A stretch of 64,000 nt of DNA from contig WIUZ02000007.1 of assembly GCA_015956445.1 (NCBI GenBank), positions 930,001 to 994,000 on the forward strand. Direction: 5' to 3'. Made by a program: the position numbers and the translations under genes. Origin of the DNA: Thelephora terrestris (Eukaryota; Basidiomycota; Agaricomycetes; Thelephorales; Thelephoraceae). Each line of letters starts with the position of its first letter. Position 1 is the stretch's first letter. The notes beneath the pieces are model-generated. The model made no database searches, was not told the origin of the DNA, and saw only the letters and a program-made list of their open reading frames with translations. Positions 9,101-37,391 of the stretch are shown here, one piece after another.

Positions 9101-9735
9101 TACAAGGCTCACAATCGCTTTCCCTCAGCCACGAGTTCCTCAAGAACATTGGAACGGATGCAGGCTTTGGAAGTTTGTACCCTTACTTGTCTGTATTTTG
9201 GCCCTGGTTGCTGATACTATGTTTTCGTATCTTGCAGTTTACCGTTCCTGACGTGGTTAAAAGGGCCAAGTATGTAACAGGAAACATCATTTCGTACGTA
9301 TTCGATACGATAGCCACAACGACACCCAGTCCTCCGCCGCAAACGTCTTTGAGGAAATAAACTCGGAAATTCTCTCTTGCCGAAGGAACCCAAGACGTCA
9401 GGAAGGACGTCCAAGTCGCAAGTCCGTTTTCTGCCTCCCTTCGAGATCACCCGTCCAATTTGAACAACAGACCGACTTTCTCTCCGGCAAACAGTGATCA
9501 ATGTATTTTGCTCCTACGGTTTCGAGCTTGTCGGCCTATGCCCAGATGGAAATTCCGGGCATGTACTGTCCGCGTTCTTGCAACAGGTCCCAGAATTGGA
9601 GAACCCTTTGGTAGCGTCCCCCCAACAGCAGTCCCCCCCCTCAAATCCTCCTCCGAATTCGCTCTGAAATTCGAGGCTGGATTCCAGCCTACCTTTGGTC
9701 AGACTTCCCACGACGTCCCGATCCAGTAGAGTTCT
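9101..9735 (+). pseudogene. MDR oxidoreductase relic 1 (C-terminal half)
   Basis: Fragments match the second half of the intact MDR gene at 12971-14435: SHEFLKNIGTDAGF corresponds to NHEFLKSLGADAVF, and DVVKRAKYVTGNIISYVFD corresponds to DMVKKVKDVAGNNISHVLD. Homology starts abruptly near 9101, inside the coenzyme-binding region, so the N-terminal half is missing. Frames are broken and the exon ends are eroded. It is closest in wording to relic 3 at about 15.2-16.2 kb, with which it shares distinctive changes. It marks the left boundary of the tandem array. No product is expected. Confidence 0.72.
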
Positions 9736-10180
9736 GTCGCGACTTCATTCCTTCAACATCCCTTGTGTCGAATGCAGGCTGTAGAAATTCCCGGGCCTGT
9801 GAACCTCAGACCTTGTGACGCGCACCAATTTCCATCTGCTAGATGCTGACCGGGACGCCGCGCCAAATTTTCGCAAATCCAGATCAAGCCGTGTTTCCCT
9901 ATGTCAATTTTCTCTTGGCCCATACCGCTTGCATACCACGTTTGGTCCGGGCGCTTGTATCTTATCAGGCACCTGCTTCGCGCCAATCCAGCTGCGCCCA
10001 GGTTTTCTGACCACATCCGAGCAAAATTGTACCCCTGCCCTTTGTTGTCCTTGCATCCACTATGCGTCGCTGTTGAAAGGATCCTCGACCAGGCCGACGA
10101 TCAGTCCACCCCCCATACCTACCCCTCCGGTCGTTGAGGCCAGATTTATCGAATCGGAACATCACGAACCCGACAGGAGA
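9736..10180 (+). pseudogene. STAND (NACHT) gene remnant with internal deletion
   Basis: The 5' flank and first ~20 codons match the two longer STAND genes (start context CCACTATGCGTC, then LLKGSSTRPTISPPP and PTPPVV). About 10134 the sequence jumps straight to the block ARFIESEHHEPD, which in the copy at 16.8 kb lies in exon 5 beyond the NACHT core. Nearly 1.7 kb of genomic DNA, including the P-loop, is therefore missing. Near 10180 it is cut again and fused to the minus-strand GATA relic. It cannot encode a working receptor. The upstream TATA-like element of the 16.5-kb copy is mutated here. Confidence 0.75.
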
Positions 10181-11640
10181 GGAAGGGGATGACCGATGAT
10201 GGGGAGAACCGTTGCCGTAGCTACCAGGGTTCGCGTAGTGCAAGGGTGGCAAGACGTTGCTCGGTGAATGGGCACGACTTGGAGCAGCGCTTCCACTGCG
10301 AATGTAACTCGATCCAAAGACCCTGGGAGCTCCGACATAGCCAGCAGAGGTGGGGAAGAATGCGCGAGATCCGTGTGGCTCATCTCAGGGGCAGCAAGAG
10401 CAGCGTTCAGCGGAGGTAATCGAAACCGCCCACATGAGGGGCCGAATGGATGGATGGCGAATTTGCAGTGTAGCCCCTCCCGTATCGGTCCATATGTAAG
10501 GCAGCGCGGCTGGAGCTCCTCGAAAGACTTCCCGCACGGCTCTCGGCCAGAAGGATATCGCGCTGAGACCCCTTCCTTCACCTCTTACTACCAGAGTCAG
10601 CGCCGTCATCCTCGTCATTCTTATCTTCGGGAGTAGGTTCGCGGGTGGAAACCTGGGTCCTCGCGCTCCTTCGCCTAGCAAGAGAAGCGGCGGTGTTACC
10701 GCTAGCACCACGCTTGACGCGCTTCCTTCTGGGCGTCCTCCTCCTCGTCTTCATCATCATCGACACCACTCTCTTCACCGGAAGCACACTCCTGAACGCG
10801 TGGAACGGAATCAAGGGCCTCGGCTGCTGCTTGTTCGGTCAAACGAATGTTGGCGGCAGGGGAAGTGTTGGTACTAGCGCTAGCCCCGGAAGCAGCAGAC
10901 GCACGCTTCCGGCGTTTGATAACGGCCTTTTTCATAGAGTTCGGACGGTGGGTGCCATGCAACTTGTGATAGAGACCTAGAGATAAGGGTGACATAGACG
11001 GAAAGGGTGGGAAAGTTTCGGGATTATATATCGAAAAGATTGGGATAGAGTTTGGGGGACCAGATGCTTACCGCACGCGTTACAGATGTTATTTCCAACG
11101 TCATCCTTTCGCCACAAGGGAGTGGCACAAGACAAAGCACCGACAGAATTAGAATTAACGGCGCCCTTTCCACCCTTTTTCCCGTTCGTGGGGGGATTCT
11201 TGGGAGGAGGAGGGATCTGAGGTGCCGGATCATCCTTGACAGTTTGATCCGCGGGTTCGTGTTCAACAGCGAGACGGGCAGCCTGATGAGCATTGTTGAA
11301 GGTCGGGCAGCCGTCACAAGCGTCCGCACCTACCGTCACCGGGGCATGTGCCCGCGTGCGGTTTTGGTGGAGGAGAGGCGGCGGGAGTAGGAATGACCTG
11401 CGTGCGCATCGGTTATACGGGAACGGGGGAATCTGTAGTGGGTTCCGTGGAGGTGGAAGGAATGGGAGGGGACGCGTCGAACGTGTCATTTGGTTGAAGG
11501 TGATGTAAAGAGCTAAATAAATGTGAGATAAGGAAGAGACGCGCTCGAGGTGCGTGGAGGACGTACCGCAGTTGTTGCAGACGAAAGACCCAGCCTTACG
11601 CCTCCAATGAAGCGGAGATGTGGATGCGCACTACAAGGTG
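10180..11640 (-). pseudogene. URBS1-like GATA factor, relic A
   Basis: Matches the intact GATA gene at 35237-37269 but is incomplete at both ends. The C-terminal coiled-coil part is cut off by fusion to the STAND remnant near 10180. The 5' end is lost near 11625, where the first zinc finger is interrupted by unrelated sequence also seen in relic B. The cysteine-rich block between the fingers keeps only its last pair (ADACDGCP). The second finger has lost its first CxxC pair: it reads [20 protein letters not shown]. Several frame shifts separate the remaining pieces. Even if transcribed, the product would lack both intact fingers. Confidence 0.78.
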
Positions 11641-12970
11641 ATGACGAGGGTCTCAATGCACTGAGGATCGCTGCGGGTACCTTTGGGCTGAGTATCGCGC
11701 GAACTCGAACACTTGAAGCCAGAGTAAACTAACCGAGAAGAGGGGATAGAATCGCCCTTTTCGTTGAAGACCACAGCACCGCAAGCGAGGGCCAGAATGC
11801 GGGATTCAAAAGGAGATATATAGAAGGCGGAGAGCTGGCATTGAGCGGATCTGGTGAACTGAGGCTCCGGAAGACTTTGATGCGAGAAGTGACCAAGTCA
11901 GACCTTTTTAAGTTGGTGGACTGGGCACTAACCTCCTAGTCGCAACGGGTGTTATGACCGGGGTCCCTGTGCGGATTGAATATTGAGACGCAGTATCGTC
12001 TCATGTTCATCTAAATGCAAGACGTCAACCAACTCGTACCGCTCTGCGAACGCGGCGGTTCGATCGTGTTCCGGTTTAATCGTTCTGCTGATGCGGTTCA
12101 ACCGTTTTTCTGTTGCTGTGTTCCAGGTCGCGCCGAACCTCTAGATGCGAAACTTGCTGGGTCTCTCGCTAACTATCCAGCGTACTCATCGTAATCAAGG
12201 ACTACCCGGAAATCCCACTGGAAAAGGGGTTGACATCATCGTGTTCAAACATACAATCGGTCACTCGGACTCACGAAGAAGTGGACTTCCAAACTCGTCT
12301 GCATGAACACCGGTCACGGTTGCAACTGATTAAGAGAATAAGGAGGGCGGGTTCTCCATCACTCGCATTAAAACCAGTCGCCTCGCGGAACGCAGGGATG
12401 CGAGCCGAGAAAGACGAAGATCGGTACGTGCACACATCAAAGAGGGTGGGGTGAAGGAGGTCGGTTTGCAGTGGATGTCGCTCCCAGACCCTGTCTGCTG
12501 GTTGGCGGAACATGGGCGAATCAGAACGACTTCAATTATCTTGCTGACTCACCCTCGAACAGAACACAAGTCTGATGATGCCGCATAAGAACTTGAGTAC
12601 TTGAGTAACTGGGCGGTTGAGGTAACTACAAATGGAGAGGTGGTGTGGAGAATCTGGTCCCCAGAGGAGCGCCAATCTGACCCATGTGCTGATGTAGCGG
12701 CCCAGGCGTCGGCTTCCCCTCCCATCATTCAACGAGGATTCTATTTGGTCTTAAACCGACCATGGTCAGACATTGGTCACCCAGTGCACTAAATACACCC
12801 CGGCCGCGCCAGGAGAGGGCCGCGTAACCCACCATGTACAGTTGCTCTCCAAGGGCTTGCGTCACCCCCCTGTCGGCCCCATCAGTGATGACGAACTCTA
12901 ATATCTGGATATGAAGGAGGTATTTAACGGGAAGACAATGGTGCAGTCTGACCCAACTGCCCGCTTCGCC
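11641..12970. repeat. Array spacer between GATA relic A and MDR gene 2
   Basis: The stretch is homologous to 26151-27408, the equivalent spacer downstream of relic B, including the sequence that replaces the lost GATA 5' end and the segment just before the MDR start. It must hold the promoter of the intact MDR gene at 12971. No coding region with family resemblance is visible on either strand. Confidence 0.55.
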
Positions 12971-14435
12971 ATGTCTGTCCCCTCAGAAAATATTCCGACC
13001 ACCTGCAAGGCGCTCGTCCAAGAGGTTTGTCGCACCGACTTGGGAATCTCACAATCTCAAACCTATCTTTGCTGCCAGGGAAAAGAGATTGTCCTCAAGG
13101 AGACCCCCACCCCTTCAGTAGGGGAGAACGAGGTCCTGGTTAGGGTACGAGCGATTGGTCTCAACCCCATCGACGTGAACAGTGCGTCGAGCCCATTTCT
13201 CGCCTTCCTCGGCGGATCCTAACGGTCACTTCCCGAACCTTATCCTTCCATGCTCGATATCCAGCCTACAGGTTCTTCCCCACGGAAGGCGCTTACATCG
13301 GGTGCGACTTTACGGGGGAAGTTGTCAAGCTTGGACCGAACCTCAAAGTCGATCTCAAGGTTGGGGACAAAGTCAGTGCCACCATCGTTGGCAGTAAGTG
13401 TCCGGGGTGCATGTTTGCAGACCCACAGACTTAACGAAACCTAGACTCCGTGGGCGGGCGTGGCGCTTTCGCTCAGTATGCGAAGACATTCTCCGATATC
13501 GTCTGGAAGATCCCCGAGGGAACGTTGTCGTTCGAACAAGCTGTGGCTACCGCCTCTCCGTATGTCTCTATCTTTCCATTCGCCCACCTCGCCTCTCGCC
13601 CAAGGTTCTGACATATCCACTAGCCTCAACGCGGCATTCCAAGCCTTGTACGGGGCTAAGGAATTGGGACTAACCCAACACTTCGACTCTGCTCCTTCAG
13701 AGGGGACGAAGAACACGTGGGTTTTCGTCTACGGAGGAAGTTCCGGAGTCGGCCAATTCGCGATTCAACTCGCCAAGCTTTCTGGTTACAAGGTCGTCAC
13801 CGTCGCTTCCCCTCGCAACCACGAGTTCCTGAAGAGTCTTGGAGCGGATGCAGTCTTCGACGTTTGTACCCTCACCGATTTATTTGTTCACCCTCGTGGC
13901 TGATACTTCTGTGCTCGTGTTCGTCAGTATAGGGATCCTGACATGGTCAAAAAAGTCAAGGATGTAGCGGGAAACAATATCTCGCACGTACTCGATGCGA
14001 TAGCCGGGAACGACACCCAACTCACCGCGGTGAAAGTCCTGGCGGAACATAAACCTGGAAAAGTTGTCGCAGTTCTTCCCCTCGCCGAAGGAATCCAAGA
14101 CGTCAGGAAGGACGTCCAAGTCGCGGGTTCGTCTTCTACCTCCCCTCGAAATCACCCATCCGGTTCGAACTGCTGACCAACCTTCTCTCTCGATGACAGT
14201 GGTCAATATCTTTTGCTCCTACGGTTTCGGGTATGCCGGCCTAGGCCCAGATGACGACGCCAGGCGTGTGTTATCCGCGTTCTTGCAAAAGGTTCCAGAG
14301 CTGGTTAAAGACGGAAAGTTGAAGTGCATCCCGGTGAAGAAGTTCGAAGGGGGATTGGAAAAAGTCGTCAGCGATGGGTTTGAGTATATCGCGTCAGGAA
14401 AAGTCAGCGCGGAAAAGGTCGTGTTCACGGTGTGA
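12971..14435 (+). CDS. Zinc-type-ADH-like / enoyl-reductase-like MDR oxidoreductase (357 aa)
   Basis: Seven exons: 12971-13024, 13079-13181, 13265-13393, 13445-13559, 13624-13861, 13928-14126 and 14200-14435. All phases agree, giving 357 codons plus stop. It has the GroES-like N-terminal domain (ENEVLVRVRAIGLNPIDVN, then GCDFTGEVVKLGP and VGDKVSATIVG). The Rossmann fold follows with the glycine motif GGSSGVG at residues 171-177, then LGADAVFDYRD and the C-terminal GLEKVVSDGFEYIASGKVSAEK. No structural-zinc cysteine lobe is seen, so it belongs with quinone reductase or trans-enoyl reductase-like MDR enzymes that reduce with NADPH. The substrate is unknown. It is the only MDR copy of the four that looks whole. 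It is followed by a GATA 3' fragment, not by a STAND gene. Confidence 0.87.
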
Positions 14436-14576: not shown

Positions 14577-15150
14577 CGGATGGTCTGGACGTAAGAAAAA
14601 GTAATATGCACATACGATAAGGGAGAGATCAAGAGGGCACGAGGCTGAACAAACAACGACGGGGTAAGGATAACAGGGAAACGCGGACACGAGATGAGAC
14701 CCGGGGACTGGGGCGTATGGAGGTTATGAGATATATGAACGATGATGGGGGGCAGTTGTCCGGCATGTAACACAGGGGAACAAAATTAGACTTTGCACCA
14801 ACAAAGCGAGATAGTGAAATGTTAGAACACAACAGCCGGACGAACGTCCGAGACCCATACATGGGATGAGGGCAAAAATCGGAGCGATCAACGAGGGTAG
14901 TGATACAAAGACAGGACACGGCGTAGGCTCGTTCCAAGCCCCGGCGGTTCTCATCCTCGAGGCGGCCTCCGGCCGTTTCGATCGATGATCGAACCTTCTT
15001 TGTCGAGAGAAAATGGCTCTGGTCTGTGCCTCTGTAGAGAAACAGACACTGGAGGCTGAGAGGAGGGACATTCTTCGGCCCGGCGTGGGGATCGAGGGAG
15101 AAGCCGAGACTGGTCGAGAAGTCGTAGGTTGTCGCGACCGGTAAAAGATA
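14577..15150 (-). pseudogene. 3' scrap of the GATA factor gene
   Basis: From about 14577 the sequence matches the 3' flank and last ~60 codons of the GATA copies (compare 24.0-24.5 kb and 34.9-35.4 kb). It includes the C-terminal blocks [15 protein letters not shown] and SRLLPRSPRRAEE in minus-strand frames. Both ends are abrupt: on the left it abuts the 3' flank of MDR gene 2, on the right it joins inside exon 2 of MDR relic 3 near 15150. It lacks all DNA-binding parts and is a by-product of rearrangement. Confidence 0.7.
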
Positions 15151-19700: not shown

Positions 19701-22700
19701 GTCCTGGAAGGTTCTTCGGATGGCTCAATCCTCTTCTGTGCAGACAAGTATTATTCAGTCACCTTGTGGGATATTCAAACTGGGGGATTAATCCACACTT
19801 TCCCCTTTGTGAGGACAGTTAGAGACATGGCTGTTTCCTCAGAAAGCCGCTTCCTTGCCTGTAGGATTTCAAGAGGGCTCATCAATGTTCTGGGAGTCTC
19901 AGGCACGGAAAAGGATGTTAATAACTGGGAAGCTACACCAGTTACCTGCTTTTGTTGGCTGCAGCCAGAAAACCAACTTGCTGTCACGAACGCGTGACAT
20001 AGTAGCCAAGATCTCACAAGTAATTCAAGACATTGGTCTCATTCGCAGTAATAATAGTACAAGAGTGGCAAAAAGGAACTACAAACTCAGACAAGAACAA
20101 ACGGATCGATATCACATGAACAGTTCTGAGGGAGAGGACAACGATGAGCGAAATGGTGAGGGTTATAAACACTCTCAGGACAGTAAGACCACTCTCGCGT
20201 CACCGGGTCCTGCCAACACTCCCTACACCCCAACACATCATGAGATAAACTATCATACATCTCCCGCTTCACGTCCGACAAGGCCGCGCTCACTAAGGCG
20301 AACCCATAGCGGTCCTGGAGACCCGCCACTTCCACCTTCAACTTCATCCTCACCTGACGTGACTTGTCGGAGGGACGACAACGTTGACCAGAACGAGTCA
20401 TCGGACTCTTGCGGGTCTTCTTCTTCTGGGACCTCTCCACCATCTGGTGAACTGGGACAGGACTCCAGGGAGGGGATGGAGGGAGAGGAACGCCCTGATC
20501 CTGGCGGTGGCGAAGGGACGACTGGGGACTTGCTAGGGGGGTTGGTGCAGTAAGCTCCGCGACATTGGTGTCCGAAATATCGGAAGAGAGATGCCTGGAA
20601 AGGTCCCCAATGTTCCAAAGCAAAGTGAGAGAAGTCATCATTTAAACTGTTCATGATGACGTACATGAGGTCCACACGCTTCTCCAGTTTCGCAATCCTA
20701 TCTTCCCTATCCCTCTCCATGACGTCCAACAAACGGACGGCTCCAGGGTGGAAGGCTTGAACCTGAGGCCCAGAGAGCCTGGGGTCGTCGTAGCCGGCTT
20801 GCTCCCAGAACTCGGTGGGAGCATCGTGAGCAGTGAGGAAATTGACGGCGACCTGATTGTTGTGGGCGATGTTAGCAGGGGTATCGTACAAGTGTTGCTC
20901 CACATCGTAGGGAGCGTCCGTCTCAAAGGATGGAGTAAAGGGGACGGCGGCAGCGTTGAGAATAACGTTGTTGGCGGCGAAGGCAGACATAGTAGTAGCA
21001 GTGTTTAAGAGGAGAGTAGTGGTTGATTGGTGGGAGTGGAAAGAGGCGATGGGAGGAACGATCATTAATCCCCCTGACTTAAATACCTCCTGACTCAAAG
21101 GCAAACCGGAAAGAGAAAACAATAACCCATTATCCATTAAAGTCCGAATTAGGATAAACAAACCCTTAACCCTGATCATGATCCCATCAAACTCAGAGAA
21201 ATCCCCATCGATCATGGGAAATCCCCACCACGCTTCTATTGCTACCATTGATCCAGAGAAATCCCCATCACGCTTCTATTGCTACCACGAAACACGAGAA
21301 ATCCCTGAGTGCTTCCATCGACCCGTGCCCCTATTGCTCCCGTATGAGTAATTACTATCTGTCGTCCTAAGTCCCCTCATTCTGACTCATCTACCCTACC
21401 CTAAACTACGCACAGACCATGTTGACTCTTGTTTGACTCGTTGTAGAATAATGACTCCTGTAGAGGATTGGGTATATAAGGAAGAGCGTTCGCTCCTTCT
21501 TTTCCCCATTCTCAATCTCTTCTGTACTCCTCTACCCACAACCTGAATAAAAGTAAGCTGAGGAATTCTCCTCACGCCTTACTCCTTCTAACTCATCTCA
21601 GCAGGAATCCTCCTGCCAGTGTATGTTCAGCGCCCCTAATCCTTTCCCCTCTACTAGCCCAGTTCAGCGACCAGTCATCCCTGACGCTAGGAGATCTATC
21701 TGGGAGTATAAACTCATCAGAAGTCTTCAAGTAAACCGAACCGCCGGTTTACTTACCCATTTTCCTTACTATCGACCCTTTGCAGCTCTCGACGCCGGAG
21801 TCACTACTCCTCCCTTTCTATTAGGAGCGGATCATCAATTCCTTTGGAATTCAGATCTTACTGAGAGCGTCCTTGCGACAGTCTACTTCAGTATCAGTCC
21901 GGCCTTCTACTTCCCCTCTCCACGTGTTCACCTTACAACTAACATCCACACCCACTCCCCTGCTATTATCGTTCTTTGGTGGGAAGTCCCAGCTGAATTA
22001 CCTTATTCTGTTATAGAGTATCTTGTCAATTTCGAAAGGCTTAGCGATCAAGACTTCGAACCGTTTGTGCAGCAACTCAATCAGTTCTGCCAAGACTACC
22101 ACTCGCCCGTTCATCCCTATCAGACCGAGTCACCCCTCTCTCTTGATATTCCTCCTCCTCTCATCTCCACACCCGGAACCCCCTTCAAAACCAGACCCGA
22201 CACCCCCCATCCATCTGCTAATCCTCTAGCGCCCCACAAACAGTAAGCAGGCCTACAACCCTGACACTTGCAATTGCAAGGGGGGCACGGGTGAAGATAT
22301 GGAATGTTGTCACGGGTAAAATCCTGCGCAGTTTCAAGATGGTGGACCGCATTCGCACCATGGTCTATTCCCAGAAGCGAAATTGGTTGGCTATTGCCAT
22401 TCATTCACCATCCTCAACTGCTGGTGTAATCATTGACCTTCAGACAGGCACACCCTCCACTTTGTACAAGGTTCAAGGAAAATTGTCCTCCTTCACCTTC
22501 TCTGGGACAGCAGAGGAAATTGTGTGCAGTATGAAAAATTCCAGTGGACTGAAAGTAATCAACCTTTCAACAAAGAGTTGGAGGCATATCAAACACCCAC
22601 AAATTATAGATCTTGTCTCCACCCTGTCAAATGGCGCCATAGTAGTGGATTTCAAAACTGGTGTCCAGCTGTTGAGTCTGGATGACAAATACACATCTCC

Positions 22701-23478
22701 CAAGTCAACTTTGGCAGTTGATATAAAAACTTTTGACAAGGGCAGAATCATTGCTGTACAACCACCTTCCTCTCAAAGTATCCAATTACTGGAATTGTCC
22801 ACCATGTGCAACATTTTCACAATCTCAAGTCAGGATGGTGACGAAATCACCCTTTCTGGCCTCCTCACTGTGTCATTTAAAGATCGCACAGTGGTTTATT
22901 GTTTTGAGAGGCAGGGAACTGCATATATGCGGTTATGCAGGTTTGATGATAAACCATTGGGATGGAACGTGGTAACAAAGTCACTGCAATCAGCAGGGGA
23001 GATTTCACCAGCCAGTACCCGGCTTGTGACTTTTGAAGCCACAGGTAATTGTATCAATGTGTGGGATGTGGGCAATGGACAACTCCAGGCAGAGTGTAAA
23101 ACTTCTGAATACTCTCCTACCCCCTTCATCACATTTGAATCAGAAACACAATTCTACACTTGTGACTACCACTACTCCATCTGTCATGATCTCAAACTCT
23201 TACCTGGGGCAGAGACTACCCACCAGATTGTCCATGGCGAGAGGCAATCAGAGTCGAGAAGTGGGCCACCCTGGACCATGGAGTTGAGTGAGAGGCAATA
23301 TAAATTGGGTGAAAAATGTCAATGGGTGGTTAGGGGCTCAGAAAAGATTTTCTGGATTCCACCAGGATATCTTAGGTCGGGTTGTTGGGCCAGGTCCAAT
23401 ATGCTTGTCATGATTGGTGAGGATACAGTATTGAGGGCATTTTACTTTGCTCCTGGGGGCACCGTTTGTGAACAATAG
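16773..23478 (+). pseudogene. NACHT / WD40-like STAND gene 1, split by an LTR-type insertion
   Basis: Exons: 16773-17132, 17186-17313, 17378-17516, 17565-17672, 17728-19290, then the last exon from 19338, which is interrupted at 19982. After the element the same frame resumes near 22272 and stays open to a TAG at 23476-23478. Domains: an N-terminal helical region (SSDMCLPLKAVVGALSVLV), a short heptad-repeat exon, NACHT with P-loop GLAGTGKST and Walker B VIVVDALDECID, a helical arm, then WD40-like blades (SVTLWDIQTGG before the insertion, RVKIWNVVTGK after). Apart from the insertion I see no damage; every exon has the phase of the intact copy at 29824. Transcripts may still make a protein ending just inside the element, with NACHT and the first blades. 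Fungal NACHT-WD40 proteins act as intracellular receptors in non-self recognition; that role here is inferred. Confidence 0.85.
19982..22266. mobile_element. LTR-type retroelement fossil (2,285 bp) inside STAND gene 1
   Basis: The element starts TGTCA and ends TGACA, so it has TG...CA ends with a 5-bp inverted terminus. It is flanked by a perfect 5-bp target duplication CTTGC (19977-19981 and 22267-22271). Alignment with the unsplit paralogue confirms both edges. Inside lie a minus-strand frame (about 20990-20253, a gag-like size, with a short coiled-coil-like DVMERDREDRIAKLEKRVD) and a plus-strand frame (21623-22246). Between them, on the plus strand, are a TATA box near 21470 and an AATAAA near 21546, the layout of an LTR promoter and end signal. 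No protease, reverse transcriptase or integrase was recognised. It may be an unusually long solo LTR or a non-autonomous element. Perfect target duplication suggests a fairly recent insertion. Confidence 0.7.
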
Positions 23479-24311
23479 AATGTACATTACTTTTTGCTCA
23501 CTTGAGTTATGGATTTTGGTCCTGTCCTGTGTGTAAGGCTATATTAAATATACGCTGTGATTTTCCAACTATGTGATCACAAAGTACACCAAGAAAAACT
23601 TTGTAAACATCAGTCAAGACAAGCCTACTCTACAAACTTGGGGAGATTCTTGCACAGGAGGCTCTGAACATCTAACAAGGTATCTCAAGAACATTCACAA
23701 TGGTACAGAAGGGTAAAAGTATATGACAGGCAACGCCAAAGCCAAAGATGAGACAGCCTATCCAAGGTTTCAGCTTTTTTTTCAGGGGGCGTCCAAATAT
23801 ATATGTGGTAGGATCAAAAGGGATCGAGAAGAGGGAGAAAGTACGTTCAATTAACAATTCCGTGAATGGATGCAGGTAAGATAGCACAGGATTAGGGGAA
23901 CAACTGTCAAAAAGGGAATATAAACAGACAAAAAGGAAGAAAGGTCGGATAGAAAATATACACGACGAAAGGGGGACAAGAAAAAAGTAATATGCACATA
24001 TGATAAGAGCGAGAGCAAGAGGGGACGAGCCCGAATACACAACCACGGGGTAACGATAATAAGAAGACGTAGACACGAGATGAGATCCGGAGACTGGGGC
24101 GTATGGAAGTTATGAGATATAAAACGATGATGGGGCAGTTATACGGCATAAGACAGAAGGGAACAAAATTAGACTTAACACCAATAAAGCGAGATCGTAA
24201 ACTAACACAACAGCCGGACGAACGTTCGAGACCCATACACAGGGACAGAGAGGGATGGAGGCAAGATCAGAGCGATGAAAGAACAGGTAAAGACAGGACA
24301 CGACCGCGAGA
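23479..24311. repeat. Spacer between convergent STAND gene 1 and GATA relic B
   Basis: Homologous throughout to 34388-35236, the same position in the right-hand cassette. It should contain both 3' UTRs. No gene is visible; the open frames on the minus strand are hydrophobic, low-complexity frames repeated in each copy (also at 14.6-14.9 kb). Confidence 0.55.
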
Positions 24312-26150
24312 TCACACGCTGGTCTCGATCGGGATAACGTTCCACACGGTTTCCTTGGCGAGAGAAGATGGCTCGGGTCTATGCCTCTGCAGAGAAATGG
24401 ACACCGGAGGCTGAGAGGGACGACGTTCTTCGCCCTGGTGTGGGGATCGAGGGGGAGAAGCCGAGACCGGTCGAGAGGGCGTAGCTTGTCGCGACCTCTG
24501 AGCCGCGTGCTGGCTGAGAGCGATAGCGAGCTCTCGCTCACGCATCTCATCCATACCACGACGAACGCCCTGCATCAGCCACTCAGTGCGAGCGAGCATC
24601 TCTTCCAGACGAGACTTTTCCTTGCTGAGGTCCATGAAGTGTTTCTCGAGCTCAGCGTGGGTAGGGATTGAAGGAGAGGAGGGAGACAACCGATGATGAG
24701 GAGAACCGTTGCCGTAGATACCAGGGTTGGCGTAGTGCAAAGGTGGCAAGACGTTGCTCGGTGAATGGACACGCCTTGGAGTAGCGCTCCCACTGCGAAT
24801 GTAACTCGATCCATCCCTGGGAGCTCCAGACATAGCTAGCAGAGGTGGAGAAAAATGCGAGAGATCCGTTGAGGACCATATGGCTCATCTCGGGGGCAGC
24901 AAGGGCAGCGTTCAGTGGAGGTAAATCGAAACCGCCCACATGAGGAGCTGAATGGATGGATGGAGAATTGGCCGTTTAGCCCCTCCCATATCGGTCCATG
25001 TGAAAGTCAGCGCAGCTAGAGCTCCTCGATAGACTTCCCGCACGGCTCTCGGCCAGAAGAATATCACGCCGGGACCCTTTCCTTCGCCTCTTACTACCAG
25101 CGTCAGCATGAGTCTTTATCTTCGGGAGTAGGCTCAAGGGTGGAAACCTTGGTCCTCGCGCTCCTTCGCCTAACAAGGGATGCAGCGGTGTTGCCGCTGG
25201 CACGACGCTTGACGCGCTTCCTTCTGGGTTCGTCCCCCTCCTCGTTTTCTTCATCATCAACACCACTTTCATCACCGGAAGCACGCTCCTGTATGCGTGA
25301 AACGGAAACAAGGGCCTCAGCGGCCGCTTGTTCGGTCAAACGAGTGTTGGCAGCAGGAAAAAGTATTGGTACTAGCGCTAGCCCCAGAAACAGTCGGCAC
25401 ACGCTTCCAGCGTTTGATAACGGTCTTTTTCAGAGTTCGAAGGGTGGGTGCCATGCAACTTGCAATAGAGACCTAGAACCTAAAGATAAGGGTGACATAG
25501 ACGGGAAGGGTGGGAAAGTTTCGGGATTAGATATCGGAAAGATTAGGATATAATTTGGGGGACCAGATGCTTACCGCACGCGTTACAGATGTTATTTCCA
25601 ACATCATCCCTTCGCCACGAGGGAGTAGCGCTCGTGCCGCAATTGGCACAAGACAAAGCACCGACAGAATTAGAGTTGGCGGTTCACATTCCGCCCTTCT
25701 TCCCATTCGTGGGGAGATTCTTGGGAGCGGGTGCGGGGGCAGGGTTCTAAGGTGCCGGATCACCCTTGACAGTCTGATCCGCGGGTTCGTGTTCAACAGC
25801 GGGACGGGCAGCCTGATGGACATTGTTGAGAGTCGGGCAGCCGTTACAAGCGTCCGCACCGCCGGTTCCGTCGCATGTGCCCGCGTGCGGTTTTGGTGAA
25901 GGGGGATGACCTGCGTGTGCATCGGTTTTACGGGAACGGATGAATCTGTATTGGGTTTCGGGGAGGTGGAAGGTATGGGAAGGGGACGCGTCGAACGTGT
26001 CCTTTGGTTGAGGGTGATTTAAAGAGCTGAATAAAGGTGAGATAAGGAAGAGAAACGCTCGAGGTGCGTGGAGGACGTACCGCAATTGTTGCAGACGAAA
26101 GATCCATCCTTATCACGCCTCCAATGAAGTGAGGATGTGGATGCGCACTA
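24312..26150 (-). pseudogene. URBS1-like GATA factor, relic B
   Basis: The C-terminal 170 codons remain open (24833-24312) and match the intact gene, including the coiled coil [20 protein letters not shown] and the end [10 protein letters not shown]. Upstream the frame is broken in several places. The cysteine-rich block reads [15 protein letters not shown]: six residues including one cysteine are deleted. The first finger is cut near 26140 by the same foreign junction seen in relic A, removing the CxxC pair and the start codon. The second finger region is better kept. The shared junction means A and B come from one already truncated copy. Confidence 0.8.
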
Positions 26151-27408
26151 CAAGGTGATGACGAGGGTCTCAACGCACTGAGGATCGTTGCGGGCACCTT
26201 CGGGCAGAGTATCGCGCGAACTCGAATAATTGAAGCCAGAGTAAACTAACCGGGCTGAGGGGACAGAATCGCCCGTTTCGCGCAAGACCACAGCACGGCG
26301 AGCGAGTGCCAAAATGCGGATGGAGAAATGGATTCAAAAGGAGGAATATAGAGGGCCGGAGAGCTGGTGTTGAGCGGATCTGGTGAACTGAGGCTCCGGA
26401 GGACTTCGACGCGAGAACCAGGTCGGACCTTTTTACGTTGGGTGCTCTAACAAGTGGACTGAGCACTAACCTCCTAGTCGCAACGTCCCTGTGCGGATTG
26501 AGACGCGGTGTCGTCTCATATTCATCTATGCAAGACGTCAACATGCTCATAGCGCTCGACAAACGCGGTGGTTAGATCGTTTTGCAGATGCGGTTTGAGC
26601 GTTCTGTTCAACTTGTTGATGCGGTTCAACCGTTCTTCTGATGCCTCCGTTCAAGGTCGCGCCGAAACTCTGGATGCGAAACTTGCTGGTTCCCTCGCTG
26701 GCTATCCGACGTACCCATGTAATCACGAAATACCCGGAGAGCGAACGGGGCGAAGGAGTTGACATCGACGTGCTCAAGCATCCAACCGGCCACTCGTACT
26801 CAAGATCGAGTGGACTTCTGCATGACCACCGGTCACCGTTGCACCGATTGAGAGGATTGGGAGTGTGGATTCTATACCAATCACGTCAAAACCAGTCGCC
26901 TCGAGACAACGATCGGTACTCGCACAAACCGAAGAAGGTGGGGTGAAGGACGACAGTTCGCAGTGGATGTTGCTCCCAGACCCTGTCTGTTGGTTGGCGG
27001 AACATGGGTGAAACAGAACGAATCCTGCTGACTCACCCCCAAATTCGACGAACAGTCGTGAGAGCTTGAGTAATCGGGCCAGGTCACTGCAATTGAAGAG
27101 GTGTTCTAGATAATCTGACCCATGTACTAATTTATCGGCCCAGGCGTCGACTTCCCTTCCCGCCATTCAACGGGGATTCTCTGTGGTCTTTCACCGGTCT
27201 TGATCACCCACGGTGCAGTAAATATACCGCGGCGTGACTTGCTGGGAGAGGGCCGCGTGATACACCACGAACGCTTGCTCTCCAAGGGCTTGCGTCATCC
27301 CTGTTGTTGGGTTCATCAGTGATGTCGAACTTAAGTCCCTGGGCATGAAGGAGGGAGGTATTTAAAGGGAAGATAATGGTGTCGCCTGACCCAACTGCCC
27401 ATTTCGCC
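26151..27408. repeat. Array spacer between GATA relic B and MDR relic 4
   Basis: Homologous to 11641-12970. It carries the same replacement for the GATA 5' end and the same pre-MDR segment. No coding region recognised. Confidence 0.55.
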
Positions 27409-28863
27409 ATGTCTGTCTCCTCAGAAATTATTCCATCTACCTGCAAGGCGCTCGTCCAAGAGGTTCGTCGCACTGACTGGCACATCTAACCGTCTCAGAC
27501 TAATCTTTGTTGCCAGGGAAAAGATATCGTTCTCGAAGAAACCCCCACCCCTGCAGTAGGGGAGAACGAGGTTCTGTTCAGGGTACGAGCGATTGGTCTC
27601 GACCCGATCGACGTTACCGGTACGTCGAGCCTGTTCCTCCCCTTTCTCGGCGGATTATAACGGTCACTTCCTGAACCTTATCCTTCCATCTTCGATATTT
27701 GGCCCACAGGTTCTTCCCCACGGAAGGTGCTCACATCGGGTGCGACTTTACGGGGGAAGTTGTCAAGCTTGGACCGAACCTCAAAGTCGATCTCAAGGCT
27801 GGGGACAAAGTTAGTGCCACCATCGTCGGCAGTAAGTGTCCAAGTTGCACGTTTGCGAGACCACAGACTTACGGAAGCACCTCCTAGACTTCGTGGGCGG
27901 GCGTGGCGCTTTCGTTCAGTATGCGAAGACGTTCTCCGACATCGTCTGGATGATCCCCGAGGGAACGTTATTGTTCGAGCAAGCTGCGGCTACCGCTTCT
28001 CCGTATGTATCTACCTTTCCATCCGTCCACCTCGCCTCTCGCCCAAGCCTCTGACATAACCACTAGCCTCAACACGGCATTCCAAGCCTTGTACGGGGCT
28101 AAGGAATTGGGACTAACCCAACACTTCGACTCTGTTCCTCCAAAGGGGACGGAAAACACGTGGGTTTTCGTTTACGGAGGAAGCTCTGGAGTCGGCCAAT
28201 TCGCGATTCAGTTCGCCAAACTTTCTGGTTACAAGGCCGTCGCTTCCCCTCGCAACCACGAGTTGCTGAAGAGCCTTGGAGCGGACGCGTTTGTACTCCC
28301 ACCGGTTGACACGTTCACTCTCGCGGCTGATACTTCTGCGCTCGTGTTCGTCAGTATAGGGATTCTGACGTGATCAAAAAGGTCAAGGATGTAGCGGGAA
28401 ACAGTATCTCGCACGCATTCGATACGATAGCCGGGAACCACACGCAAATCACCGCGGTGAAAGTCCTGGCGGAACACAAACCTGGAAAAGTCATCGCAGT
28501 TTTACCCCTCGCCGAAGGAATCCACGACGTCAGGAAGGACGTCCGAGTCAAAAGTTCGTCTTCTGCCTTCCCCCAAGCATCACTCATCCATCCGGTTCGA
28601 ACTGCTAACCAAATTTATCGGCGACAGTGATCGATATCTTCTGCTCCTACGGTTTCGGGCATGTCGGCCTAGGTCCAGATGACGATGCCAGGGGTGTTTT
28701 ATCCGCGTTCTTGCAGAAGGTTCCAGAGCTGGTTCAAGACGGAAAATTGAAGTGCATCCCGGGGAAGAAGTTCGATGGGGGATTGGAAAAAGTCGTCAGC
28801 GATGGGTTCTGGTAAATCGCATCAGGAAAAGTCAGCGCGGAAAAGGTCGTGTTCACGGTGTGA
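27409..28863 (+). pseudogene. MDR oxidoreductase relic 4 (nearly full length)
   Basis: It follows MDR gene 2 from the ATG (MSVSSEIIPSTCKALVQE) to the end, with most splice sites kept and GGSSGVGQFAIQFAKL intact. Lesions: the acceptor before exon 3 is altered; six bases are missing after the glycine motif; the end of exon 5 (the AVFD codons and donor context) is deleted; and a TAA at 28813-28815 ends the frame 16 codons early. It is probably non-functional, though a slightly altered protein cannot be fully ruled out. It groups with gene 2, not with relics 1 and 3, and sits directly upstream of the intact STAND gene. Confidence 0.78.
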
Positions 28864-29823: not shown

Positions 29824-32800
29824 ATGCTTCCCTTTCGGAAGAACCCTTCGTCGTCAACCAGGCCGACGAGCAGTACACCGCCCACAGCTACCCCTCCAGT
29901 CGTCGAGCCCGTAGAGCAGGGTCTTACGATAAGTAACCCCAAGGTCAAGGGTATCAGGGTTCTTGCTGCACGGGCAAACGCGATCGCTTTAGCCATCGCT
30001 TCTCCATCCTTGGGCCCCACGGACCCCGCGCTCGATGAGCCTGGATCGTCTCAAGAGTCGTGTTGGAAGACGGTATATGAAGGAGCGAAGATGGCAATCG
30101 ATATCACCAATGCATCCTCTGACATGTGTTTGCCACTCAAGGCGGTTGTGGGCGCCCTCTCCGTTCTCATAAAGAACTACGATGTGAGATTATCCCGAGT
30201 ATCTCGTCCGATTGTGTTGATCGTCTCCCGCAGCAAACCACCGACAACATAGAACAGATCAAAGAGATCGAGGGAAGGGTATTGTTTCTTGGCGAGAATC
30301 TCGCATCCCCAGTGGGTGACCAGGACGATAAGGAGAAGGCCCGGAGGGACGCTCTTCAAAAGTCTGTGATACTCCCCTGCGATGAAAAACTGACACACAT
30401 CTAAACTGCATGGGGCTATTCGCAGGAAGTTGACTTATGTGATCAAGAAACTCGGACCGCTTTCCGAGCAAGGCGATATCAAGAAGTTCTTGAAGAATGC
30501 TGGCAATGCCAAAACCTTGAACGGTATCGTCCAAGTCCTGGCTACTGCTGTGATAGATTACCAGGTGTGTGCAGCCAACGCTGTCCCACAAGCTGTCTAA
30601 CGTTCCGGGTAGACATCGATACAGCAGGATATCTACGTGAACACGAAGAGGATCACTGAAGATACCCAGAACATTCATGAGAACACAAATAGAATCGGCG
30701 AAGATGTCCGAAAATTTTACCAGAACACGAATAAGATTGACGAAGACGTCCAAAACGTTGGCCAGAACATGATTAAGATTGGTGAAGACCTCCAAAACGT
30801 TATTGTGAGCCGATTGTACGGCTGACACAATATTCTTTGAAAAACTAATACCACCAACAGGGAGCCACAGAACACCACCTGCTAGGGCAACTGGATCCCG
30901 TGCACGATGCCGGGTACCAAGCCGGTCACCACGATATGTGCCTCCCTGGGACTCGAAAGTCCGTCCTCGACGGGATGATGGAATGGGCTAAGAATCCGCA
31001 GGAAAGGCGCGTCCTCTGGCTCAACGGATTGGCAGGAACGGGGAAATCAACCATTGCCCAAACGTTTTCTGGAATGGTCGCAGAGGCTGAGATCCTCGGT
31101 GCCAGCTTTTTCTGCTCCCGGGATTACCACAGAAGGAAGGAGCTCAAGAACATCTTCCCCACCCTCGCTTACCAACTAGCGTATCGGTACCCTGCGTTTC
31201 GAAAACAGATCATCCCGGTAATCGAGAAGAAGCCCTCCATAGCATCAAACTCGCTCATCTCTCAACTCGAAGAGTTAATCGTGGACCCCCTCTCCTCCAC
31301 CAATATTTCGTGCGTCATCGTCGTGGATGCTCTGGACGAGTGCATCGATGATCAACCCGCCTCGGCCATCCTTTCCGTCCTCGGTCGTCACGTCAAGAAC
31401 CTACCATCAGTCAAGTTTTTCATCACTGGGAGGCCAGAACCTCGCATTCGGACCGGATTTCGCCTCTCTCTCCCAGAACCAATCGCCCAGATCTTCTTGT
31501 TACATAAAGTCAAATCGTCGGACGTTGACAAGGACATCCGATTGTACCTCCGGGAGAAGCTCACTGCGGTCGCAAAACGAAGGAGCGACTTCGACCTCAC
31601 TAGCCCATGGCCCTGCGATCAGGACCTAACGACATTAACCAAGAAGTCAGCAGGTCTCTTCATTTTCGCATCAACCCTTGCCAAGTTTATCGAATCGGAC
31701 TATTATGAGCCTGGCGAGCGTCTCCAGCTCATTGTCAATCAGCCGGACAGCACGACCTATGAGGGGGTAGCAGGTATTGACCCACTATATGCCCAAGTTC
31801 TGGAACTCGCATTTTCAGCCATTAAGGAAGCCGATGTGTTCACAAACTTGAGAAGGATCTTGGGCACAGTGATCTTAGCATTCAACCCGTTGTCCCGCAA
31901 GCAGATCGCAAAGATACTTGGCATCAATGCACCCCACATCAAGACAATCCTCCGGCATCTGCACTCAGTTCTTCTGGTCCCTGACGAAGACCACAAGGAA
32001 ATCCGTGTCTTCCACAAGTCATTCCCAGACTTCCTACAAGACCCCACCCGTTCTCCCGACCCAAAGTTTCTCATTGACCCGCCCACTCACCATGGGAATA
32101 TTGCACTTGGCTGTTTGAAGTTGTTGAAGAAGCTGAAGCCAAACCCCTGCGATCTTCCAGACTACGTGATGAATCGGGATGTCCCTGATATTCCAGAACT
32201 TCTGGAGGAGAAGGTGGGGAGTGCAACACTTTACGCATGTGGCCATTGGGCAATGCATATCCAATCTTCTCCAGCCACTGGTGCCCATGTCCTCCAGTTG
32301 ATTGCCTCTGCAACTGAGTTCTTGACTGCCACTGGTATCCAATGGATTGAAGTCATGAGCCTTGAGAACCGGTTAGAAAGTGCGGTTCATAGCATTCACA
32401 GCCTTATTGGTTGGTTTGGCAGGGTATGTACTCAATATGAATGCTCAAGTCGTTTATTGACCAAAAACAGGTTGATGTCCCTACCTCCAATCTGGGTAAC
32501 CTGGCTGAAGACTACCTCCGATTTATGAAGAATTTCTTTCTCCTCATCCAGCAATCTGCACCGCACATATACCATTCTGCTCTACCCCTATCACCAAGAT
32601 CATCCACATTCCACTCCATGACCCACCAGGAGAAAGCGTCAATCACAGAATTTTATGGGTGTCCTGAAACTTGGGGAGCTGTCATACAAACCATACCAAT
32701 CATCAATACTGGGATGGTTCATCCTGTATACACTGCTACCTTTGGCCACTGGATTGCTGTAGCTCAGTTTGGGGAAGTTATGATCTATGACAGCATCACA

Positions 32801-34387
32801 GGTGGACTGACAGTGTCACTGAGGCCTGAACATTCTGTTGATGCAATGGGAGGTTCCCCAGATGGCTCAATCCTCTTCTGTGGGAACCCAGATGGTTCAG
32901 TCACCCTATGGGATATCCAAACTGGTGGATTGGCCCATACTTTCTCCTTGAAGTACAATCTCTCTTACAAAAAGATTGCCGTTTCTGTGGGGGGTCGCTT
33001 CTTTGCCTGTGGGAAGCAGGCCATCATGGTATTTGAAGTTGCAGGCAGGGGGGAGGATGCTTTTATCTGGGAGGCCTCACAGTCTAATGGATTTTGTTGG
33101 CTGGCGGTGGAAGAGCAACTTGCAGTTGCAGATAGAGAAGGGGTGAAGATATGGAACATTGTTGATGGAACAATATTGCAAAGTATTGAAATTGTTGAAA
33201 TTGGACATAAAATCTACACCATGGTCTGTTCCCAGGAAGCCAATCAGCTGGCCATCGCCACTTTCAAAACTGTAGTAATCATCAACCTTCAGACAGGCAC
33301 ATTGTCTTCTGTCCTGTCTCATGATTCAGGGTGGTCCTTTGTTTTTGCCTTCTCCAGAAAAGCAGAGGAGATTGTGTGCACTATGAACACTGGTGGACTG
33401 GGGGTATTCAACTTTTCGACATGTAATTGGAGGTTCCTCAAATACCCAAGCGGGGTGAAATTCATCAGCACCATGCAAAATGGGACCATAGTAGCTAACT
33501 TCCACTCTGGTATCTGCTTGTTGAACCTGGATGTCAGAGATGTGCCATCTTCCCAGTCACTTTTGGCAGATTACATACTCCCTTTTGACCAGGGCAGAAT
33601 CATTGTTGCACTATTAGATTCCACTCACTTGTACAGTACACAGTTACTGTTACTGGAAACATCCACCATGTGCAACATTCTCACAACCACATTTCAATTG
33701 GGCGAAAAGCCTGATAGCCTCATCTTTGCATCACTTAAAGATCGCACAATGGTGTATGGTTTCAAGAGGCAGGGAACCACATATATGCGGTTGTGTAGGT
33801 TTGATGATGATGATGAACGGCCAAAATGGACTGTGGTAACAAGGTTTACACAATTGACAGGCGAAATTTCACCAGCTGGTACCCGGCTTGTGACCATCGA
33901 GGCCGACAGTCATTGTATGTCTGTGTGGGATGCAGGCAGTGGACAACTCCAGGTAGATCGCATGTTTCTCAAAGACCCCAATCCCCCCTCCAACACCAGA
34001 TACTGCCCCATCACATTTGAATCAGAATCACAATTCCACATCCAAGGCAACCACTACATCATCCATAATAATCTTGGACTCTCACCTGGGGCAGAGACTA
34101 CCTACCAGATTATCTGTCAGGGTCAGCAATCAGAGTCAAGGAGGAGGCAACCATGGAATGTCAAGTTGAGTGAGAGTGGATATAAAGTGGATGAAAGTCA
34201 TGAATGGGTCATTAGGGGCTCAGAAAAGATTTGCTGGATTCCACCAGGATATATCAGGTTAGGAAAACCCAAGTCGAAAAAGAGAGGGTATCTTTGGGCC
34301 GGGTCTGATACACTTGTCATGATTGGTGGGGATAAAGTGTTGAGGGCATTTTACTTTGCTCCTGGGAGCACCATTTGTGAACAATAG
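29824..34387 (+). CDS. NACHT / WD40-like STAND receptor protein, intact (1,432 aa)
   Basis: Six exons: 29824-30183, 30234-30361, 30426-30564, 30613-30804, 30861-32423 and 32471-34387. All phases agree. Residues 1-210 form an N-terminal helical domain (CLPLKAVVGALSVLIKNYD). Residues 210-273 are a coiled coil of 14-residue repeats. The NACHT NTPase follows with P-loop GLAGTGKST at 329-337 and Walker B VIVVDALDECID at about 425-436. A helical arm comes next, and the last ~570 residues are WD40-like blades (SVTLWDIQTGG, GVKIWNIVDG, CMSVWDAGSG). This is the NLR-like architecture of fungal incompatibility and innate-recognition proteins: ligand binding by the propeller would trigger oligomerisation through NACHT. 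Ligand and effector output are unknown. It converges with the intact GATA gene 850 bp downstream. Confidence 0.9.
30652..30804 (+). repeat. 42-bp coding repeats (14-residue coiled-coil units)
   Basis: Within exon 4 of STAND gene 2 a 14-residue unit recurs 3.6 times: ITEDTQNIHENTNR, IGEDVRKFYQNTNK, IDEDVQNVGQNMIK, IGEDLQNVI. The pattern I-x-E-D with Asn-rich positions fits two heptads per unit. STAND gene 1 has only 1.6 units in the same exon (17604-17672). The exon is 84 bp longer here, exactly two units. Confidence 0.85.
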
Positions 34388-35236
34388 AATGTACACTACT
34401 TGTTGCTTGCTCAAATTATGCCAGATTTTAGCTCTGTTCTTGGTGTAAGGCTCTTCAATACACACTGTGATTTTACAAGCTATGCTATTAGAAAGCACAC
34501 CAAGAAAACTGTTGAAAAATTCAGTCAAGATAAGCCTATGAACTCTGGGAGAAGGACATAATTCTCACAGGTGGCTCAAAACATCTAACAATATATGCCA
34601 GGAAGATTCCCAAAGGTACAGAAAGGGTAAAAGTATACGACAGGAAACACCGAAGCCAAAGACAAGACAACCTATCCAAGGTTTCGGCTTATTTTTTTTC
34701 AGGGGGCATCCAAATATATATGTGGTGAGATCAAAAGGGATCAAAAGGGTGGGGGAGAAAAGTGAGTTCAATTAACAATTCCGTGAATGGATGCAGGTAA
34801 GATAGCACAGGATTAGGGGAACAAATGTCAAAAAGGGGATATAAACAAACAAAAAGGAAGAAAGGTCGGATAGAAAATATACACGACGAAAGGGGGACAA
34901 GAAAAAAAGTAATATGCACATACGATAAGAGCGAGAGCAAGAGGGGACGAGCCTGAACACACAACGACGGGGTAACGATAATAAGAAAACGTAGACACGA
35001 GATGGGATCCAGAGACTAGGGCGTATGGAAGTTATGAGATATAAAACGATGATGGGGAAGTTGTCCGGCATAAGACAGAGGGGAACAAAATTAGACTTAG
35101 CACCAATAAAGCGAGATCGTAAACTAACACAACAGCCGGACGAACGTTCGAGACCCATACACAGGAACAGAGAGGGATGGAGGCAAAGACCAGAGCGATG
35201 AAAGAACAGTGGTAAAGACAGGACACGACCGCGAGA
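34388..35236. other. Spacer between convergent STAND gene 2 and the GATA gene
   Basis: Homologous to 23479-24311. It should hold the 3' UTRs of both genes. No coding region recognised. Confidence 0.5.
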
Positions 35237-37269
35237 TCACACGCTGGTCTCGATCGGGATAACGTTCCACACGGTTTCCTTGGCGAGAGAAGATGGCTCG
35301 GGTCTATGCCTCTGTAGAGAAATAGACACCGGAGGCTGAGAGGAAGGACGTTCTTCGCCCTGGTGTGGGGATCGAGGGGGAGAAGCCGAGACCGGTCGAG
35401 AAGGCGTAGCTTGTCGCGACCTCTGAGCCGCGTGCTGGCTGAGAGCGATAGCGAGCTCTCGCTCACGCATCTCATCCATACCACGACGGACGCCTTGCAT
35501 CAGCCACTCAGTGCGAGCGAGCATCTCTTCCAGACGAGACTTTTCCTTGCTGAGGTCCATGAAGTGTTTCTCGAGCTCAGCGTGCGTAGGGATTGAAGGA
35601 GAAGAAGGGGACGACCGATGATGAGGAGAACCGTTGCCGTAGATACCAGGGTTCGCGTAGTGCAAGGGTGGCAAGACGTTGCTCGGTGAATGGGCACGAC
35701 TTGGAGCGGCGCTCCCACTGCGAATGTAACTCGATCCAAAGTCCCTGGGAGCTCCGACATAGCCAGCAGAGGTGGGGAAGAATGCGCGAGATCCGTTGAG
35801 AACCATATGACTCATCTCGGGGGCAGCAAGAGCAGCGTTCAGCGGAGGTAAATCGAAACCGCCCACATGAGGAGCCGAATGGATGGCTGGCGAATTGGCA
35901 GTGTAGCCCCTCCCATATCGGTCCATGTGAAAGGCAGCGCGGCTAGAGCTCCTCGATAGACTTCCCGCACGGCTCTCAGCCAGAAGGATATCGCGCTGAG
36001 ACCCTTTCCTTCGCCTCTTACTACCAGCGTCAGCGTCGTCATCTTCGTCGTCCTTATCTTCGGGAGTAGGTTCGCGGGTGGAAACTTTGGTCCTCGCGCT
36101 CCTTCGCCTAGCAAGGGATGCGGCGGTGTTACCATTGGCACCACGCTTGACGCGCTTCCTTCTGGGCTCGTCCTCCTCCTCGTCTTCGTCATCATCGACA
36201 GCACTCTCTTCACCGGAAGCACGCTCCTGAACGCGTGAAACGGAAACAAGGGCCTCGGCGGCTGCTTGTTCGGTCAAACGAGTGTTGGCGGCAGGGGAAG
36301 TGTTGGTACTAGCGCTAGCCCCGGAAGCAGCCGGCACACGCTTCCGGCGTTTGATAACGGTCTTTTTCATAGAGTTCGGACGGTGGGTGCCATGCAACTT
36401 GTAATAGAGACCTAGAAATAAGGGTGACATAGTCGGAGAGGGTGGGAAAAATTCGGGATTAGATATCGGGAAGATTAGGATAGAGTTTGGGGGACCAGAT
36501 GCTCACCGCACGCGTTACAGATGTTATTTCCAACATCATCCCTTCGCCACAAGGGAGTAGCGCTCGTACCGCAATTGGCACAAGACAAAGCACCGACAGA
36601 ATTAGAGTTGGCGGCACCCTTTCCGCCCTTTTTCCCGTTCGCGGGGGGATTCTTGGGAGCGGGTGTGGGGGCAGGGATCTGAGGTGCCGGATCATCCTTG
36701 ACAGTTTGATCCGAAGGTTCGTGTTCAACAGCGGGACGGGCAGCCTGATGGGCATTGTTAAAAGTCGGGCAGCCGTTACAAGCGTCTGCACCGCCGGTTC
36801 CGTCGCACCTGCCGTCACCGGGGCATGTGCCCGCGTGTGGTTTTGGTGAAGGAGAGGCGGCGGGGGTTGGGATGACCTGCGTGTGCATCGGTTTTACGGG
36901 AACGGATGAATCTGTGTTGGGTTTTGGGGAGGTGGAAGGAATGGGAGGGGGACGCGTTGAACGTGTCCTTTGGTTGAACGTGATGTAAAGAGCTGAATAA
37001 ATGTGAGATAAGGAAGAGACACGCTCGAGGTGCGTGGAGGACGTACCGCAGTTGTTGCAGACGAAAGACCCATCCTTATCACGCCTCCAATGAAGCGAGG
37101 ATGTGGATGCGCACTGGTTGCAAGCCGTCCCCGGCGGAGGTTGGGGGGATAAGACGTCCTCGTCCATTGGTTCAGCGGGGGACTGTGGACGGGATGGGTC
37201 ACCAGTGCGGGAGTCAGAGGATGAGGCGTGGTCTGAGGGAGGGGGAGTGTGGATGGCGGCGGCGGACAT
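35237..37269 (-). CDS. URBS1: URBS1/SREA-type two-finger GATA regulator of iron/siderophore genes (627 aa)
   Basis: Three exons: 37269-37047, 36992-36507 and 36411-35237, introns 54 and 95 bp. GATA finger 1 is at residues 50-74 onward (CNQC, 17 residues, CNNC, completed by ALYITFNQR after the first intron). Finger 2 is at about 212-237 (CANC, 17 residues, CNAC, then [17 protein letters not shown] after the second intron). Between them Cys131, 137, 146 and 149 form C-x5-C-x8-C-x2-C ([19 protein letters not shown]), the hallmark of the iron-sensing URBS1/SREA/SRE/SFU1 repressors. A basic cluster PRRKRVKR follows an acidic run, and a coiled coil lies at 513-568. These proteins repress siderophore and iron uptake genes when iron is plentiful. 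I start at the ATG giving [10 protein letters not shown]; the longer frame upstream has no ATG. It is the only whole copy of three. Confidence 0.92.
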
Positions 37270-37391
37270 GATCTTTGGGGGAGAGGGAGGGGGGGAAGGG
37301 GGAGAGGGTTGCGCTGGCAAAGGGAAAGCGAAGGGAAATTGAATATATAATCGCTGTCCAATCGCCTACTGCCCATTCGGGAAATCTAAAG

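Follow-up and report, generated by a model that had tools for sequence, protein, structure and literature searches.

A tandem MDR-STAND-GATA array in Thelephora terrestris that looks like ordinary duplication, unequal exchange and decay

Fungal NLR genes evolve by birth and death, and tandem arrays that arise from unequal crossing-over and lose members through pseudogene decay are examples of that process. According to excerpts of two reports, fungal NLR genes are frequently clustered and their repeat domains diversify (PMC4986451, PMC12258605). The excerpt of the second report finds paralogous copies in just 16 of 272 clusters, from the Sordariales, so that, on those figures, NLR clusters are not most often built of paralogues (PMC12258605). 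The N-termini of basidiomycete NLRs are described, again in excerpts, as poorly annotated (PMC4986451, PMC9815663). For the iron-responsive GATA factors SreA and Urbs1, the passage available from one account gives a layout of two GATA fingers with an interjacent Cys-rich region (PMC2610380).

Here we present a locus in which a STAND gene, a member of the NLR-like class, is repeated together with a medium-chain dehydrogenase/reductase (MDR) gene and a GATA gene. The window is the whole stretch of 64,000 nucleotides that was analysed, taken from contig WIUZ02000007.1 of Thelephora terrestris. The combination of these three genes was undescribed in titles and abstract beginnings among the matches listed, which is a weak indication. 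Searches with single exons gave 392 pattern matches for GATA in viral contigs, 5 for STAND in viral contigs and 14 for STAND in bacterial and archaeal genomes, none of them confirmed; these collections are not fungal and have no bearing on synteny.

Layout of the array

Self-comparison of the window showed that positions 9101-37269 form a head-to-tail array, in which MDR (+ strand), STAND (+) and GATA (-) recur in this order in four units, designated U0 to U3, some of them partly deleted. The same-strand repeats have BLAST E-values as low as 0.0:

10175-14575 and 24672-29008, same strand, repeat pair at 82%
22266-26149 and 33118-37115, same strand, repeat pair at 83%
16224-19984 and 29267-33126, same strand, repeat pair in two pieces at 78-79%
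10175-11632 and 35597-37115, same strand, repeat pair at 90%

An initial annotation, made from the sequence alone, had described a cassette of this order and orientation as tandemly amplified and had proposed a self dot-plot as a check. The repeated cassette is indeed present and the four-unit map supports the amplification, although the earlier figure of about three cassettes has to be raised to four on the MDR and GATA traces. MDR leaves traces in four units, GATA in four (in U1 as a 3' fragment only) and STAND in three (none in U1). Gene models came from a home-made finder trained on the window, with approximate exon edges, so that "whole" here means whole by model: one of four MDR copies (U1), one of four GATA copies (U3) and one of three STAND copies (U3). 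The earlier statement that each type has a single whole member, and that these sit in different units, thus holds; STAND U2 is nonetheless open on either side of an insertion.

The right flank of the array holds a further gene, which we take to be ARP6-like:

37490..38768, + strand, actin-related gene, partial model (Pfam: Actin)

The window DNA looks eukaryotic, has short introns and, judged by its content, would be that of a fungus, probably a basidiomycete. A scan of the window found neither a tRNA nor an Rfam match at the gathering threshold.

Gene copies and their junctions

The MDR copies differ widely in their state:

9101..9599, + strand, U0 MDR, 3' half only, a pseudogene with indels in common with U2
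12911..14435, + strand, U1 MDR, the sole copy whole by model, 395 aa
15129..16220, + strand, U2 MDR, a pseudogene with the 5' exon missing
27376..28815, + strand, U3 MDR, defective

U1 MDR carries ADH_N and ADH_zinc_N domains (Pfam), and positions 13025-13078, although they read in frame, are probably a further intron. Its best PDB matches, over 333 residues, are 3gqv (E 1.9e-39) and 3b6z (E 2.6e-39), structures of the LovC enoyl reductase. The gene is in this respect like the LovC-type trans-acting enoyl reductases, but among the window proteins examined we recognised no polyketide synthase. In U3 MDR, a 10-base deletion beside a splice donor shifts the frame, another 6 bases are deleted, and the frame stops early, at codon 379 of 395. 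On the gene model, its splice acceptor is probably changed as well; a stop at codon 46 probably sits in an intron and was left out of the defect count. The U0 and U2 copies have numerous indels. In the MDR 3' region, 58 informative sites pair U0 with U2 and U1 with U3, against 3 that pair U0 with U1 and U2 with U3, and 1 that pairs U0 with U3 and U1 with U2. U0 and U2 also have five indels in common against U1 and U3, of 2, 1, 1, 1 and 13 bases, and four of these fall within exons. A sixth distinguishes U0 and U2 from U1 at a place deleted in U3; indels at alignment ends are excluded from the count. Sites and indels therefore indicate that the MDR of one unit was dead before a two-unit block was copied.

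STAND is represented by one whole copy, one interrupted copy and a remnant:

9693..10142, + strand, U0 STAND remnant of ~0.5 kb, upstream region and first codons
16773..19981, + strand, U2 STAND 5' part, 976 codons without a stop
19982..22266, no strand assigned, 2.3-kb insertion within STAND U2; its ends are TG...CA (TGTCA/TGACA), and CTTGC is repeated directly (5 bp)
22267..23478, + strand, U2 STAND 3' part, open up to its own stop
29824..34387, + strand, U3 STAND, whole, 6 exons and 1428 aa, NACHT/NPHP3_N followed by a WD40-like region

Positions 10139-10175 match STAND 18547-18583, which suggests that the body of U0 STAND was lost through at least two deletions. The insertion in U2 looks like a solo LTR or a short LTR element; the single ORF tested in it had no Pfam match above cut-off. 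The NTPase of STAND is of the NACHT type, scoring 32.7 bits for NACHT (cut-off 26.7) and 98.6 bits for NPHP3_N (cut-off 24.8). C-terminal WD40-type Pfam matches, with E-values down to 1.5e-8, lie under the curated cut-offs, and the best PDB match of this region is 5yzv_A (PkwA, 2.2e-13). An AlphaFold model of the propeller exon had a mean pLDDT of 40.8, a confidence too low for use. For the N-terminal 182 aa of U3 STAND, Pfam gave nothing above cut-off, and a PDB search up to E 10 was empty. When two STAND N-termini were scanned for an effector domain (HeLo/Goodbye/BaMLKL), one was matchless and the other matched DUF7269 at E 0.043, below cut-off.

Codons with gaps were excluded from all dN/dS and replacement/silent counts. 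Between STAND U2 and U3, dN/dS is 0.35 before the insertion point and 0.71 after it (973 and 393 compared codons). By region it is 0.17 in the NTPase, and 0.53 and 0.71 in the propeller pieces; no 150-codon window exceeds 1, the maximum being 0.93, and dS reaches 0.6-0.9 in several windows. Of the three genes, only STAND kept two copies open over a long period, its NTPase region being constrained and its propeller region changing faster.

The GATA copies lie on the opposite strand:

10175..11632, - strand, U0 GATA, without its 3' end, truncated 5' at the common junction, two stops, frameshifts, finger 2 partly lost
14587..15139, - strand, U1 GATA 3' fragment
23976..26149, - strand, U2 GATA, cut at the common junction, four internal stops, frameshifts
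35237..37269, - strand, U3 GATA, whole, 3 exons and 627 aa, two GATA fingers separated by a Cys-rich stretch

PF00320 matched U3 GATA in two stretches, confirming two fingers, of which finger 1 is readable with one intron more than the gene finder spliced. The Cys-rich stretch between them, seen by eye in the translation, has 19 residues. Judged by this layout, U3 GATA is a putative iron-type GATA factor.

The two internal GATA-MDR junctions that survive, at 11632 and 26149, have an identical breakpoint in GATA exon 1. Near both positions the sequence reads ...GCGCACT followed by ACAAGGTGATGACGAGG; this is not found in U3, where GATA runs on to its start codon. Through this cut, U0 and U2 GATA have lost their first 52 codons, so that they have no start codon and their finger 1 is without its first zinc-binding cysteine. 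That these copies are incomplete had been noted earlier; the cause has to be amended, since besides decay there is the common breakpoint. The two spacers begin at this junction:

11633..12910, no strand assigned, spacer between U0 and U1, starting at the common junction
26150..27375, no strand assigned, spacer between U2 and U3, with a junction identical to that of the first spacer

We considered a fusion gene spanning GATA and the spacer and rejected it: as we read them, both copies of the spacer frame run into a stop at the junction, and the frames differ further out; the fragment at the junction had no Pfam match. The joint between U1 and U2 is of another kind. At 15129-15139, GATA 3' sequence meets an MDR exon, and the joined sequences have no long overlap; this may be the joint of a block duplication, a later deletion being equally possible. 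Head-to-tail copies with a common breakpoint, as found here, are the mark of tandem duplication by unequal exchange.

Divergence along the unit and the silent changes in GATA

Divergence between units varies along their length. Between U2 and U3, K2P distances are 0.24 for the STAND N part, 0.35 for the STAND C part and 0.175 after STAND, against 0.084 for the GATA core and 0.048 for the GATA 3' flank. Compared in windows of 200 bases, these two units differ by 2.5-11% in GATA and its 3' flank (from 34812 on), and by 8.5-36% in STAND with its upstream region. U1 and U3 MDR are 0.12-0.13 apart, and the two spacers 0.20. From unit to unit, the GATA tract thus appears less divergent than its flanks, as though it had been converted or exchanged. 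In the GATA introns, each of the three pairs differs by 7-8% (12, 11 and 11 of 149 sites), and since introns and 3' flank share the likeness, we prefer conversion or exchange to constraint by itself. At a distance of 0.20-0.23, the 3' fragment of U1 GATA would lie outside this homogenisation. No tract edges were found inside GATA, where the differences are evenly spread without a clear mosaic. Conversion has also to be added on other grounds: the block-duplication tree predicts that U0 and U2 GATA are nearest to each other, yet they are 0.117 apart and 0.070 and 0.084, respectively, from U3.

RIP-like mutation was rejected for GATA, as C-to-T changes fall in many contexts, with CpG accounting for 6 of 25 in U0 and 18 of 43 in U2. 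U2 has a mild CpG excess among these changes.

The GATA branches of U0 and U2 have replacement:silent counts of 30:29 and 42:36 against a neutral ratio of 2.42 (418 codons; p ~0.001 each). CpG bias does not account for this, as weighting it up to tenfold drops the neutral ratio only to ~1.96. The silent excess counts against free decay over the whole history of these copies, unless there was conversion from functional alleles, which is the more likely source and leaves the excess partly unexplained. By region, the summed U0 and U2 counts are 35:46 in the C-terminal part and 37:19 before it, finger 2 included (Fisher p 0.0095); finger 2, the DNA-binding part, has 8 replacement changes and 1 silent (42 codons). 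Finger 2 should be the best protected part of a working regulator, so a past DNA-binding role of these copies is unlikely. A reading in which the junction-cut copies, which later lost parts around finger 2 as well and are broken now, were once made as C-terminal fragments modulating the intact regulator would account for an excess confined to the C-terminal part; we consider it highly doubtful. Cryptococcus Cir1 is likewise without the first finger, according to the excerpt cited above (PMC2610380).

Origin of the array and comparison with known systems

We favour, at a probability of about 0.8, an origin by tandem duplication, unequal exchange, block copying, decay and conversion, with GATA and MDR as passengers. 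A stretch with MDR, STAND and most of GATA would have been duplicated in tandem with its breakpoint inside GATA exon 1, and from the common junction we infer that the extra GATA was born without a start. One MDR would then have died, after which the two-unit block would have been duplicated by unequal exchange to give U0-U1-U2-U3. Later deletions would have cost U1 its STAND gene, and U0 both its own beginning and the bulk of STAND; STAND U2 would have been split by a retroelement-like insertion. Exchange or conversion would have kept the GATA tract less divergent than what surrounds it. The two passengers would have returned to one working copy each, STAND alone retaining two open, diverging copies for long, which is what birth and death of fungal NLR genes would lead one to expect.

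The initial annotation had left the choice between passive hitch-hiking and selection on linked dosage. One surviving whole copy per gene type fits the former. That selection favoured a higher dose of the iron regulator, or of the cassette as a whole, is scarcely credible: four units and the silent excess in U0 and U2 GATA would suit it, but in this haplotype it is contradicted by the single whole copies of GATA and MDR among four each (STAND has one in three), by the lack of a start codon in U0 and U2 GATA and by the 8:1 ratio in finger 2. It is possible, though less likely than not, that the array was kept by selection on STAND, through diversification of a non-self sensor, and this is compatible with the origin by duplication and decay with GATA and MDR as passengers. 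The long open reading of two copies, the slow NTPase beside the faster propeller, the high dS and the reported clustering and repeat diversification of fungal NLRs speak for it; the failure of dN/dS to exceed 1 in any window, and the loss of the gene from U1, its near loss from U0 and its interruption in U2, speak against it. An assembly artefact, in which two dikaryon haplotypes (U0-U1 and U2-U3) were placed in tandem, is improbable. The alternating pattern of MDR types and the ~7-20% divergence between halves would suit two diverged haplotypes of a dimer, and two further head-to-tail pairs occur in the window. However, the joint between U1 and U2 appears to be without the long common stretch that an overlap assembler would need, and each half would still be a true tandem of the two types with an identical junction.

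STAND resembles the NACHT-WD NLR genes of Basidiomycota in its NACHT/NPHP3_N NTPase, C-terminal WD40-like region, quicker repeat-region change and tandem neighbours, and differs in its matchless N-terminal 182 aa and in WD40-like matches under the Pfam cut-offs. U3 GATA shares two fingers and an intervening Cys-rich stretch with SreA, Urbs1 and SRE, but no siderophore synthetase was recognised among the proteins examined in the partly annotated window, and three broken copies lie near it. Between the putative iron regulator and the STAND receptor, no functional link was found beyond neighbourhood. The locus shows how an array of a receptor gene can take along fragments of a conserved iron regulator with no gain in the regulator's dosage, a warning that additional copies of a regulator of this type can be defective from the moment they arise. 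With its common junction, block duplication, deletions and conversion-like homogenisation, the U0-U3 array shows no essential difference from known arrays built by unequal crossing-over with pseudogene decay; it looks like an ordinary event of tandem duplication, unequal exchange and decay, and is a worked example rather than a new system.

Tandem duplication across the window

Three separate tandem duplications were identified in the 64-kb window: the main array of MDR, STAND and GATA genes, an anoctamin-like gene pair and a tyrosinase-like gene pair. Both pairs were defined by self-comparison, gene models and Pfam, the Pfam test having covered the first anoctamin-like gene and one tyrosinase-like gene only. 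The window also holds an ArgJ-family gene.

44867-45964, minus strand: ArgJ-family gene
47361-55406: head-to-tail duplication, anoctamin-like gene pair
57813-62463: two tyrosinase-like genes in tandem

The copies of the anoctamin-like duplication, which also takes in part of the 5' region of a minus-strand gene at 47.0-47.9 kb, meet at 51792, and the paired genes (702 and 708 aa) are 89% identical. DNA identity within the tyrosinase-like pair is 79%.

Insertion and repeat in the STAND copies

19982-22266: insertion in STAND U2, ends TG...CA
30680-30801: 2.9 copies of a 42-bp repeat within the coding part of STAND U3

The insertion in the U2 copy of this NACHT/WD40-like receptor gene contains a 40-bp tandem repeat (21218-21305). 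It also carries, on the minus strand at about 20.1-21.2 kb, an ORF for which Pfam gave nothing above the cut-off. The U3 repeat encodes a 14-residue protein repeat; the corresponding region of U2 is shorter.

Broken GATA copies

The excess of silent changes over neutral decay in the broken GATA copies (10175-11632 and 24672-26149) is confined to the C-terminal part.
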